Shown: positions 15,993 to 19,961 of the stretch, piece after piece | Layout: every line of letters starts with the position of its first letter | How positions within the stretch are numbered: the first letter of the stretch is position 1 | Source of the DNA: Guyparkeria sp. SCN-R1 | GTDB taxonomy: Bacteria > Pseudomonadota > Gammaproteobacteria > Halothiobacillales > Halothiobacillaceae | Length of the DNA stretch: 64,000 nucleotides | Assembly: GCF_003932495.1 (NCBI RefSeq) | Contig: NZ_QZMT01000009.1 | Span: 1-64,000 of the forward strand | Direction: 5' to 3' | Made by a program: the position numbers and the translations under genes | The notes under the pieces: generated by a model | Database searches by the model: none | What the model saw: only the letters and a program-made list of their open reading frames with translations | Told to the model about the DNA's origin: nothing

Positions 15993-17657
15993 GTGGACAA
16001 CAAACCCGATAACGCACCGGACACGCATAGCGAATCGGTCGGCGTCCCGGCACCCGAAGGGGCAGCCAACCTGATCGACACCGATTACAAGATCGGGCAA
16101 GACAACTACCAGGCCACACCGATGGGCGTGAACATCGACATCCATGGCGCGGTGTTCGCCTTTTCCTCCCTGATCATCCTGGCGTTCGTCGTGCTGACAC
16201 TCGCCCTGCCCGACCAGTCGACCGCTTGGTTCGATGGTGCCAAGAACTGGATCAACAACAACATGACCTGGTTCTTCCTGCTGGCGGCCAACATCTTCGT
16301 CGTCCTGAGCCTCGTCCTGATCGTCACGCCATTGGGCAAGATCCGCATCGGTGGGGCCAACGCCACGCCCGACTTCAGCTACCTCGGCTGGTTCTCGATG
16401 TTGTTCGCCGCGGGCATGGGCATCGGCCTGATGTTCTACGGCGTCTCCGAACCGCTTACCCACTACGGCACCGCGCTGGGTGGCACAAGCGTGGGCGAAG
16501 ACGGCCTGCGGACCGATTGGGCACCGCTGGGTGCGGCCGCCGACAATCCCGCCGCAGCCTACACCCTCAGTATGGCCGCCACGATCTTTCATTGGGGCCT
16601 GCACCCGTGGGCGATCTACGCCATCGTGGCGCTGTCGCTGGCGATCTTCGCCTACAACAAGGGGCTGCCGCTGACGGTCCGCTCGATTTTCTACCCGCTG
16701 CTGGGCGAGCGCATCTGGGGCTGGCCGGGCCATCTGATCGATATCCTGGCGGTATTCGCGACCCTCTTCGGCCTGGCGACCTCGCTTGGCATCGGTGCCC
16801 AGCAGGCATCCGCCGGGCTGAGCCACCTGTTCGACATACCGGGCGGCACGACCACGCTGGTACTGCTGATCACCGGCATCACGGCGGTGGCCATCGTGTC
16901 CATCGTGGCCGGTGTCGACAAGGGCGTGAAGCGGCTGTCCGAGATCAACATGGTGCTGGCGTTCCTGCTGCTGATGTTCGTGATCTTCGTCGGCCCGACG
17001 CTCCTGATCGCGACCGGATTCTTCAAGAACCTCGGCGCGTACGTCACCGAACTGCCGTTCCTTTCCAATCCGTTCGCCCGCGACGACGCCAACTTCAGTC
17101 AGGGCTGGACCACGTTCTACTGGGCCTGGTGGATCAGCTGGTCGCCGTTCGTCGGCATGTTCATTGCCCGGGTCTCCCGCGGTCGCACGGTGCGTGAATT
17201 CCTGGCTGCCGTGCTGCTCGTGCCGTCGACCGTGTCGGTGCTGTGGATGACCGCCTTCGGCACCACCGCCATCGAGCAGCTGAAGAACGGTTTTGAAGGC
17301 GCCAAGAACTCCGACCTGCCGGTCCAGCTCTTCGAAGTGCTGAGCCAGCTGCCCTTGGCCGAGATCACCTCGTTCATTGGCATCGTGCTCGTGATCGTGT
17401 TCTTCGTGACCTCGTCGGATTCCGGTTCGCTGGTCATCGACACCATCACCGCCGGCGGCAAGATCGACGCCCCCAAACCCCAGCGTGTGTTCTGGGGCGT
17501 GATCGAGGGCGCGATCGCGATCGCCCTGCTGGTGGGTGGCGGCCTCGCGGCACTGCAGTCCGCGGCCGTCGCCGCGGGCCTGCCGTTCACGGTGGTCCTG
17601 CTGGTGGGCTGTTATGCCATCGTCAAGGGACTGATGAGCGAGCCCCGCGGTAAATGA
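15993..17657 (+). CDS. BCCT-family betaine/choline/carnitine-type transporter
   Basis: The 554-residue inner-membrane protein has about twelve membrane helices and the BCCT hallmarks GMGIGLMFYGVSEPL (glycine-rich helix) and WTTFYWAWWISWSPFVGMFIARVSRGRTVREF with the aromatic betaine-box tryptophans. It takes up a quaternary ammonium or related compatible solute coupled to sodium or protons, so it is probably an osmoprotectant importer. It starts with GTG behind a GGAGAGA ribosome-binding site; the 55-residue hydrophilic N-terminus and short C-terminus suggest limited cytoplasmic regulatory tails. Its original terminator is split by the IS inserted 80 bases downstream. Confidence 0.93.
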   Translation: MDNKPDNAPDTHSESVGVPAPEGAANLIDTDYKIGQDNYQATPMGVNIDIHGAVFAFSSLIILAFVVLTLALPDQSTAWFDGAKNWINNNMTWFFLLAANIFVVLSLVLIVTPLGKIRIGGANATPDFSYLGWFSMLFAAGMGIGLMFYGVSEPLTHYGTALGGTSVGEDGLRTDWAPLGAAADNPAAAYTLSMAATIFHWGLHPWAIYAIVALSLAIFAYNKGLPLTVRSIFYPLLGERIWGWPGHLIDILAVFATLFGLATSLGIGAQQASAGLSHLFDIPGGTTTLVLLITGITAVAIVSIVAGVDKGVKRLSEINMVLAFLLLMFVIFVGPTLLIATGFFKNLGAYVTELPFLSNPFARDDANFSQGWTTFYWAWWISWSPFVGMFIARVSRGRTVREFLAAVLLVPSTVSVLWMTAFGTTAIEQLKNGFEGAKNSDLPVQLFEVLSQLPLAEITSFIGIVLVIVFFVTSSDSGSLVIDTITAGGKIDAPKPQRVFWGVIEGAIAIALLVGGGLAALQSAAVAAGLPFTVVLLVGCYAIVKGLMSEPRGK

Positions 17658-17723: not shown

Positions 17724-17733
17724 AAAGGCGGCC
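17724..17733 (+). terminator. Left arm of the IS-split BCCT terminator
   Basis: AAAGGCGGCC here and GGCCGCC plus eight T residues at 19196-19210 form a perfect terminator with loop AATC when the IS is removed. AATC is exactly the target duplication at 17734-17737 and 19192-19195. Confidence 0.8.
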
Positions 17734-17745
17734 AATCTGAAGTGA

Positions 17746-17786
17746 CCCCTGAAAGTTGGACACCCATCCAACTGACAGGGGTTTTT
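17746..17786 (+). terminator. Terminator-like hairpin in the IS left end, covering the orfA ribosome-binding site
   Basis: CCCCTG and AGTTGGA pair with TCCAACT and CAGGGG (stem arms 17746-17760 and 17767-17781, small internal loop), followed by TTTTT. The AGGGG in the 3' arm is also the only plausible Shine-Dalgarno sequence for orfA, whose ATG is at 17789. The hairpin can both end read-through transcripts and hide the ribosome-binding site. Confidence 0.6.
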
Positions 17787-17788
17787 CT

Positions 17789-18322
17789 ATGGCCAAATAT
17801 TCCTTGGCATTCAAGCTATGCGTGGTCCGGCATCGAGAGCACGACGGTTTCGGTAGCCGAACGACAGCCACGCACTTTGGTATTGATCATGGCACGGTCG
17901 ATAAGTGGTGCGCAGCGTATCGGGCACATGGGGAAGATGGACTGAGAAAGCGCTATCGACGCTACTCGTCGGCTTTCAAGGCCGCCGTCTTACACCGCAT
18001 GACCAGTGAAGGCTGGTCCACGCGCCAGACTTGCGCCATATTCGATATTCCAGCGCAAAGAACGCTTCAGCAATGGCAACGTGCTTTTGCCCAAGGTGGC
18101 ATGGCAGCACTGGAGCCCAAACGCCGCGGGAGACCACCCAAGATGGCCAAGCACAAGCCCCACTCGCCGCCGCTTACCCAGCGCCCCAAGGCGCCAGAGA
18201 ACATGACGACGGACGAGCTGCATGAACGTTTGGCGTATTTGGAAGCGGAGAATGCGTACTTAAAAAAGTTGAAGGCCTTGGCCCAGGAAAAGCGATCCGC
18301 CGAGAAGAAAAAGCGCGGCTGA
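17789..18322 (+). CDS. IS3-family transposase OrfA (helix-turn-helix protein)
   Basis: The 177-residue product has two N-terminal helix-turn-helix units typical of IS150-type OrfA (about residues 5-55 and 60-110), a proline-rich linker, and a C-terminal leucine-zipper-like segment (LHERLAYLEAENAYLKKLKAL) for multimerisation. It binds the terminal repeats. Start at ATG 17789; an upstream in-frame ATG at 17756 lies in the terminal repeat and is unlikely. Near its end, leucine-lysine-lysine codons form the A AAA AAG frameshift site that yields the OrfAB transposase. Confidence 0.9.
   Translation: MAKYSLAFKLCVVRHREHDGFGSRTTATHFGIDHGTVDKWCAAYRAHGEDGLRKRYRRYSSAFKAAVLHRMTSEGWSTRQTCAIFDIPAQRTLQQWQRAFAQGGMAALEPKRRGRPPKMAKHKPHSPPLTQRPKAPENMTTDELHERLAYLEAENAYLKKLKALAQEKRSAEKKKRG
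18262..18268 (+). other. Programmed -1 frameshift site A AAA AAG
   Basis: The heptamer is in the correct phase (TTA AAA AAG in the orfA frame). Slipping back one base continues without stop into the orfB frame for about 37 codons before its first ATG, giving an OrfAB fusion. Confidence 0.85.
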
Positions 18323-18375
18323 TCACCGAACTGAGACCAAGGCACGCCCTCAAGTGGCTGCTCAAGGCGGCCGGA

Positions 18376-19161
18376 ATGCCCCGCAGCGTGTATTACTACT
18401 GGTGCCGGGCTGCTGCCCGGCCAGATCGGTATGCCGATGAGAAGCGGCGCATCACTGCCATCTTCCATCAGCACCGGGGGCGCTACGGCTACCGGCGCAT
18501 CACCTGGACATTGCGCCGTCAGGGCCATCCGCTGAACCACAAGACGGTGCAGCGCTTGATGGGACGGCTGGGGCTTGCCTGCCGCCTCCGGCCGAAGCGC
18601 TACCGCTCCTATCGGGGTAAAGAGGGACTGACGGCTCCGAATCGATTGCAACGACAGTTCGAGACGGATCGGCCCAACCACAAGTGGGTCACGGACGTGA
18701 CCGAGTTCAAAGTGCGAGGCGAGCGCCTCTACCTGTCGCCAATCCTGGACCTATACAACCAGGAAGTCGTGTCCTACGAGATTGCCCGCAGTCCGAGGTT
18801 GCCCTTGGTGATGACGATGCTGAAACGAGCTGCCAAGCGGCTGGCGCACGGTGAGACGCCGATGCTGCACTCGGATCAGGGGTGGCAGTATCGGATGGCG
18901 CTATACCGCCGAACTTTGAGCCAGCACGGGATCGAGCCGAGCATGTCACGCAAGGGAAACTGCCTTGATAACGCCGTCATGGAGAACTTCTTTGGGATCC
19001 TGAAGACCGAGTGCTTTCATGGACGGACGTTCCGGAGCGTCGAGTCGCTCATCGCCGAGCTCAAGCGATACATCCGCTACTACAACCACGACCGAATCAA
19101 AGAGAAACTAAAAGGCCTGAGCCCCGTGGAATACAGGACTCAGGCCTTGGTGACCGGCTAA
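18376..19161 (+). CDS. IS3-family transposase OrfB (DDE integrase core)
   Basis: The 261 residues counted from the first ATG carry the catalytic triad: D107 in WVTDVTEF, D167 in LHSDQGWQY and E203 in NAVMENFFGILKTE, with the IS3-typical 35 residues between the last two. The YGYRRI segment near residue 40 is the HTH_21 region. The frame is open upstream to the slippery site at 18262, and family members include that upstream part, so the active protein is the OrfAB fusion rather than this ATG form. Confidence 0.92.
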   Translation: MPRSVYYYWCRAAARPDRYADEKRRITAIFHQHRGRYGYRRITWTLRRQGHPLNHKTVQRLMGRLGLACRLRPKRYRSYRGKEGLTAPNRLQRQFETDRPNHKWVTDVTEFKVRGERLYLSPILDLYNQEVVSYEIARSPRLPLVMTMLKRAAKRLAHGETPMLHSDQGWQYRMALYRRTLSQHGIEPSMSRKGNCLDNAVMENFFGILKTECFHGRTFRSVESLIAELKRYIRYYNHDRIKEKLKGLSPVEYRTQALVTG

Positions 19162-19195
19162 CCAACCGTCCAACTTTTGGGGGTCAGTTCAAATC

Positions 19196-19210
19196 GGCCG
19201 CCTTTTTTTT
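19196..19210 (+). terminator. Right arm and T-run of the IS-split BCCT terminator
   Basis: GGCCGCC followed by eight T residues is the 3' half of the terminator whose 5' arm is at 17724-17733. Before the insertion it would have separated the BCCT gene from the convergent exonuclease gene. Confidence 0.75.
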
Positions 19211-19247: not shown

Positions 19248-19961
19248 TTATTCCCAAAGCTCACTCACGGGCGTATCGGGTGAATAGTGCCTCGCGATCT
19301 GCGCCTGCAGCAACTCGGCGGTTGCCAGCGCGTCAATCTTGGCGTGGTGTGCCGAGTAGGTTGGCAAGCCGTAGCGTGTCCGGGTGTCAGACAGCCGGAT
19401 CGACGTACGCGCTCCCAGCAGCATCCCCTTGAGACGGTTCCATCCCCCTTGGCGCACCTCACGGGCCTCGATGCTCATGGTGTCGATCAACGGAAACAGG
19501 CAGCGTTCACCGCGACGCGCCTGGACGGCGGCATCCAGGAACGGCCGTTCGATCCCGCGAAAGTGGACGACCACGAGGCAGCCCGCCAGTTCGGCCAGCA
19601 ACTCGTCGAGGATCTCGTCGAGATCCGGTGCGTGGGCGACTTCGGCATGCGTAATCCGATGGAACCGGATCGAGGCCTCGTCCAGCGGCCGTTGCGGACG
19701 GACGACCCAGTAACGCCCCGCCGACGGGCGGATTCGTGTCAGGTCGAATGGCACCAGGCCGATCGACACGATGGCATGGCGATGGACGTCCATCCCGGTG
19801 GTCTCGAAATCCAATGCCACCAGCGGCACGTCACGTATGGGAGACTGTGGTGCCGGCACCCCCGCCGCGTAAAACATCCGCAGCGCCGGATCCTGACAAC
19901 GCTTGGACTGGTCGGCAAAGAAAGCGGGCCAGGTGGATTCTTCTTGTTGTGGGTTCGACAT
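19248..19961 (-). CDS. DnaQ-like 3'-5' exonuclease (DEDDh)
   Basis: The 237-residue protein has the three exonuclease motifs: ALDFETTG (ExoI, about 47-54), HFRGIERPFLDAA (ExoII) and HHAKIDALATAEL (ExoIII with His and Asp), as in the proofreading subunit of DNA polymerase III and RNase T. It lacks the polymerase-binding C-terminus of DnaQ, so it is probably a separate nuclease acting on DNA or RNA ends. It starts 8 bases after the DUF294 gene and forms a two-gene operon with it, a pairing known in other proteobacteria. The conserved ExoII Asn is replaced by Arg (HFRGIERPF), which is a little unusual. Confidence 0.85.
   Translation of the reverse strand: MSNPQQEESTWPAFFADQSKRCQDPALRMFYAAGVPAPQSPIRDVPLVALDFETTGMDVHRHAIVSIGLVPFDLTRIRPSAGRYWVVRPQRPLDEASIRFHRITHAEVAHAPDLDEILDELLAELAGCLVVVHFRGIERPFLDAAVQARRGERCLFPLIDTMSIEAREVRQGGWNRLKGMLLGARTSIRLSDTRTRYGLPTYSAHHAKIDALATAELLQAQIARHYSPDTPVSELWE

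Follow-up and report, generated by a model that had tools for sequence, protein, structure and literature searches.

Targeting of PUs and REPs by IS3-family elements, inverted-repeat replacement by IS1272, and the use of stem-loops by group IIC introns are already known. ISKpn1 and IS1397, both of the IS3 family, insert in the PUs/REPs of Enterobacteriaceae, and their specificity is set by the transposase (Wilde et al. 2003, as summarized in PMC1525189). ISPsy8, also of the IS3 family, duplicates 3 bp when it inserts at the symmetry axis of a REP hairpin (Tobes and Pareja 2006, PMC1525189). IS1272 undergoes inverted-repeat-replacing transposition into potential stem-loops (PMC5678879), and group IIC introns target stem-loops, transcriptional terminators included (PMC7923331). 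In the literature covered (subscription papers and ISfinder notes lie outside this scope), we found no paper that describes terminators as what IS150-type elements generally target, and likewise none on a ruler starting from the A/T-tract or on paired inward terminators.

The element presented here resembles ISKpn1 and IS1397 in belonging to the IS3 family and inserting into palindromes and differs in that its clade targets intrinsic terminators of any sequence (IS1397 being compared by description). ISPsy8 and the other REP-targeting ISs, likewise compared by description, use one host repeat family and not terminators generally. Inverted-repeat targets able to form stem-loops are shared with IS1272, but the latter makes no target duplication and deletes the stem-loop, whereas the present element keeps both arms and duplicates 3–4 bp. 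Group IIC introns are retroelements with a ribozyme and a reverse transcriptase, and their mechanism is unrelated.

The element and its split terminator

The window, i.e., the whole stretch of 64,000 nucleotides that was analyzed, comes from Guyparkeria sp. SCN-R1, and the features of interest are collected in Table 1. A DDE transposase with the rve domain places the element in the IS3 family, and the best NCBIfam model for OrfB was transpos_IS3 (NF033516), with 350.6 bits against a cut-off of 160. Two overlapping frames with the A6G −1 slippery site correspond to the IS150-subgroup layout, and a −1 frameshift at this site would produce OrfAB. OrfB is 56% identical to InsK of E. coli IS150 over 277 aa, and E. 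coli IS150 falls within the OrfB tree of relatives. The termini (IRL TGAAGTGACCCC, IRR TGAACTGACCCC) also conform to IS3/IS150 ends, with inverted repeats starting with TG and ending with CA and a target duplication in the short (3–5 bp) range.

Table 1. Features of the insertion locus, with positions counted from the first nucleotide of the window.
Feature	Position	Strand	Remarks
BCCT transporter gene	15993..17657	+	flanking gene, convergent with exonuclease
5' half-stem of split terminator, AAAGGCGGCC	17724..17733	.	intact in sister genomes G001, G006, G009
Left target-site duplication AATC	17734..17737	.	equals terminator loop
Insertion sequence, IS3 family, IS150 subgroup	17738..19191	+	1454 bp
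Left terminal inverted repeat TGAAGTGACCCCTGAAAGTTGGAC	17738..17761	+	
Left-end hairpin, intrinsic-terminator-like	about 17744..17786	+	inward-facing; left inverted repeat plus T5, just before orfA ATG
orfA	17789..18322	+	two helix-turn-helix regions
A6G slippery site	18262..18268	+	A AAA AAG in orfA frame
orfB frame, DDE transposase (HTH_21, rve)	18268..19161	+	−1 frame relative to orfA
Right-end hairpin, terminator-like	about 19110..19148	-	inward-facing, antisense; within last orfB codons, tail TTTTAG
Right terminal inverted repeat TGAACTGACCCCCAAAAGTTGGAC	19168..19191	-	
Right target-site duplication AATC	19192..19195	.	
3' half-stem GGCCGCC (19196-19202) and T8 tract (19203-19210) of split terminator	19196..19210	.	
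3'-5' exonuclease gene (PRK09146 / DnaQ-like)	19248..19961	-	flanking gene, convergent with BCCT

The original prediction placed the element exactly in the loop of a terminator lying between the convergent BCCT and exonuclease genes. The annotation confirmed the arrangement of the genes, and removal of the IS together with one AATC copy restored the target AAAGGCGGCC-AATC-GGCCGCCTTTTTTTT, which has a perfect 10-bp stem (7 G-C and 3 A-T pairs), the AATC loop, and a T-tract. The rejoined site was predicted to fold as a hairpin of −22.7 kcal/mol (z = −3.1), and its GC-rich hairpin, the T-tract behind it, and its position where a gene ends make it a predicted intrinsic terminator. The search for the empty site in sister strains, proposed at the same time, was successful: the same terminator with the same loop (AAAGGCGGCCAATCGGCCGCC plus a T-tract) stands unoccupied at the orthologous BCCT–exonuclease junction of the genomes G001, G006, and G009, and six other members of the genus have different terminators at this junction. 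The AATC repeat therefore represents a duplication that arose on insertion into a pre-existing terminator. Both target arms were kept and AATC was duplicated, so that the event was not an inverted-repeat replacement of the IS1272 type.

The contigs of the host draft genome (2.42 Mb) are broken at copies of the same IS family, and the assembly hence shows fewer copies than the genome contains. Most of the contig ends concerned (C2, C8, C10, C11, C15, C18, C24, C25, C27, C30, and C3) retain 55–61 bp of an IS end. An A-tract and a GC half-stem lie directly outside all but one terminus of the host-genome copies. Five pairs of contig ends could be putatively joined by their matching 4-bp duplications (GCCA, CTGG, GTCA, CAAA, and CGCG). 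All six reconstructed targets, i.e., the window site and these five pairs, are terminator-like split hairpins with tracts on both sides; the exceptional terminus is the contig C10 side of the CGCG site, a long hairpin that was entered in its 3' arm. Two more half-sites in the host genome look the same. The targets are terminators of differing sequence and thus not PU/REP repeats of the ISKpn1/IS1397 type. Separately, a solitary IS-end-like sequence TGAACTGACCCCTGTCCGGTGGGTACC at positions 43163-43240 of contig C3 has no A-tract/GC half-stem flank and may be left over from a related element.

Insertion sites of relatives and the target rule

Relatives were assembled from 80 loci with OrfB 53–66% identical and from further copies in ten of those genomes; after the removal of duplicates, the set comprised 104 distinct insertions from several phyla. 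The IS ends were set from the inverted repeats and duplications only, never from the flanking hairpins. A hairpin was found at 89 of the 104 insertions (86%) and a terminator-like hairpin at 79 (76%), compared with 4.5% and 1.0%, respectively, of 11,730 random positions within the same loci judged by the same criteria. Tracts on both sides of the hairpin occurred at 60 insertions vs. 0.09% of the random positions. Among 20 control ISs (annotated E. coli IS1, IS2, IS3, IS5, and IS30 and same-genome rve ISs with canonical ends), three were in hairpins and none in a terminator-like one (Fisher P = 5e-11 for the difference in terminator-like sites). Random landing was rejected on these grounds. 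The suggestion that hairpins or terminators are recognized as targets was to be checked for hairpin preference on other copies of the IS, and these spoke in its favor both in the host (6/6 terminator-like) and overall (79/104).

About a quarter of the relatives' sites fell short of the strict terminator criteria. Strong hairpins of a non-terminator kind account for some of these sites (PU repeats in Klebsiella and the palindromes that adjoin IS66 genes), at others the ends are uncertain, and a few lack a hairpin. Apart from this set, other rve-type ISs with the ends TGTTCAGACCGG and TGTACGGTCCGG were seen in palindromes of the CCCTCTCCC...GGGAGAGGG kind that lack A/T-tracts, at L304, L305, and L306 of Cupriavidus pauculus (G397) and L295 of Kluyvera (G392); they are possibly another hairpin-targeting group.

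When the flanks were aligned on the duplication, a C-rich stretch of ~7 nt followed by an A-rich one of ~10 nt became visible, mirrored on the other side as G and then T. In 63 of 80 sites, 5–8 nt separate the duplication from the start of the nearer AAA/TTT, whereas the distance to the farther A/T-tract varies from 4 to 27 nt. In wide terminators (more than 24 nt between the tracts, n = 18), the near-tract distance is 7.9 ± 2.4 nt and uncorrelated with the width, and the insertion therefore falls off-centre, sometimes within the stem. The loop centre was accordingly rejected as the rule. The alignments indicate that not the loop but the nearer A/T-tract, on whichever side it lies, sets the insertion point, at a distance of ~5–8 nt, with the ruler and the loop-edge position being partly confounded as most GC stems have 6–7 bp. 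The observation that the duplicated bases are exactly the loop thus stands for the window site, where the insertion is in the loop because the stem is short, but does not hold as a rule; the two coincide only with a short GC stem.

The use of Klebsiella PU sites and of the palindromes near IS66 genes (L072, L084, and L127) could mean that any strong DNA hairpin suffices and terminators are merely the commonest ones, and IS1272 likewise uses inverted repeats. We consider this unlikely, given that most of the hairpins used have A/T-tracts at the right spacing and that the insertion point tracks them.

Equally to be weighed is a linear motif, in which the transposase would read an A-tract with C/G-rich duplex (e.g., AAAAGCC) that terminators happen to contain. 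The tight spacing to one tract, the asymmetric sites with only one arm near, and the strong A-then-C composition profile fit such a reading. In the Vibrionales genome G395, however, only 394 of 5474 AAAGCC half-sites (7%) are in dyads (AAAGCC-GGCTTT dyads, n = 197), whereas 21 of the 24 insertions adjoining AAAGCC half-sites are in strict dyads (P = 1.6e-21). The dyad is thus required in addition to the A/T-tract, and a lone half-site motif was rejected for this Vibrio element. A rigid double site would demand a set spacing of the two arms, whereas the arms count over a wide range of distances. Overall, a linear motif is a doubtful explanation.

Another improbable account is capture coupled to transcription, with the transpososome using paused or terminating RNA polymerase or exposed single strands and not the DNA dyad. 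Terminators are defined by transcription, and transcription may extend to the non-terminator hairpins used, namely the PU repeats and the IS66-adjoining palindromes. Against it, no preference of orientation relative to the terminator was found in the side of the near tract (15 vs. 14), nor any bias in IS orientation (43 vs. 40), and PU/REP targets are reported as not being specific terminators (PMC1525189). Recognition of the stem from both of its arms, read from the A/T base, fits the observations best.

The weakest alternative, random landing followed by the persistence of harmless intergenic insertions only (e.g., at gene ends), is hardly credible: many bacterial ISs are located between genes and insertion in an intergenic terminator should cost little, but only ~8% of insertions would be expected at terminator-like sites if intergenic DNA made up ~12% of the genome (assumed) and held all random matches, against the observed 76%, and the distance to the tract is fixed, the other IS families, mostly from the same genomes, are not in terminators (0/20), and de novo laboratory insertions of IS150 are reported in the sokC terminator region.

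In E. coli, most natural insertions of IS150 are in hok/sok loci, where they occupy the dyad at the end of the Sok RNA, which we take to be its terminator. IS150 was seen repeatedly at this dyad in unrelated E. coli replicons and in both orientations, at hokA/hokC and in the sok loci of F-type plasmids (L236-L251). In laboratory evolution, independent de novo IS150 insertions occurred at hokC positions 16,972 and 16,989 (PMC5419217). Both map in REL606 to the same sokC dyad, and 16,972 adjoins a natural site; the published positions refer to an edited reference, on which only the sokC ones near the chromosome start can be read with confidence. The authors explained the hok/sok insertions by an adaptive benefit of inactivating toxin-antitoxin systems (PMC5419217); these insertions may partly reflect a target preference for the sok terminator. 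IS150 is also known inside genes, e.g., brnQ (PMC5419217). The search of Enterobacteriaceae found no close IS150 copies. Altogether, E. coli IS150 shares with the present element the layout, the frameshift type, and natural sites at a terminator dyad and differs in also inserting inside genes and in the left end described below.

Terminator-like hairpins carried by the element

The left-end hairpin was predicted to fold with −26 kcal/mol (z = −4.2). A hairpin with a T-run was detected at the left end of 31 of 48 distinct elements and, by the same scan, at the right end of none. The hairpin with a T-run within the last orfB codons was present in 29 of 48 elements vs. 7 of 144 internal windows; its tail in the present element is weak. 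In E. coli IS150, the right hairpin is present and no left-end terminator hairpin was detected by the same scan.

The right-end stem is 86% paired in 49 aligned rows, compared with a maximum of 80% after row shuffling and at most 52% when slid, the rows being taken as independent irrespective of kinship. One pair joins the third base of a Gly codon with the first base of an Ala/Ser/Pro/Thr codon; it takes all four Watson–Crick forms and is paired in 45 of the 49 rows, so that the amino acid follows the pairing. For the Leu codon supplying the T-tract, the last base is A in 41 of 51 rows vs. 26% of the other Leu codons of the same genes (P = 6e-16, again with kinship ignored). These patterns argue strongly that the right-end hairpin is under selection and kept by compensatory changes. 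In most members, terminator-like hairpins that face inward are present at the left as well as the right end, with termination being predicted from their sequence.

Clade history and the proposed homing on terminators

In the OrfB tree, terminator-targeting copies occur in the Proteobacteria, the Firmicutes, and, less clearly, the Bacteroidetes branches. The only relatives matching PUs are Klebsiella copies (L111, L114, L154, L171, and L208 of ATCC 13883), which use PUs as described for ISKpn1. Their neighbors in the tree are elements of Kosakonia and Shimwellia that target terminators, with IS150 as the sister, and their PU use looks like a local specialization nested in the terminator-targeting clade. 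A group from Burkholderiales and Pseudomonas targets another palindrome, beside IS66-type genes (identified as IS66 by eye). The relatives L072, L084, and L127 interrupt GTGTCCACCT...AGGTGGACAC palindromes that adjoin frames resembling IS66 tnpA/tnpB, i.e., in the hairpin of another mobile element. The preference for a particular hairpin appears to shift within a generally terminator-using clade.

We consider it likely that the element belongs to a widespread IS150-subgroup clade of the IS3 family in which the transposase directs insertion to intrinsic (rho-independent) terminators, so that a host terminator is split and replaced by two that the element brings along. The OrfAB complex would recognize the terminator stem, either as an extruded hairpin/cruciform or as symmetric duplex, probably via the paired helix-turn-helix part of OrfA. 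It would then measure from the A/T-tract base of the stem and join the IS ends with a 3–4 bp stagger. After insertion, the transcripts of both convergent neighbors are predicted to meet an inward terminator inside the element, and the IS hairpins would stop transcription entering from either side. The host would consequently lose little termination and the transposase would be shielded from read-through, and the element may thus land where insertion is safe and take over the function of the site. The fuller picture of a multi-phylum clade that reads the dyad, measures from the A/T-tract, and rebuilds bidirectional termination with two selected inward terminators, with the ISKpn1-like REP/PU specificity as a later offshoot, seems to us somewhat probable.

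Neighborhoods of tRNA genes are a safe harbor for some eukaryotic elements. If the proposed homing is true, intrinsic terminators would be a recognized safe harbor for a large group of ISs, and REP/PU targeting would be explained as a special case. The dyad, the 5–8 nt ruler, and the IS-borne terminators offer testable rules, and for experimental evolution, the preference would bear on how IS150 insertions at hok/sok loci are read.
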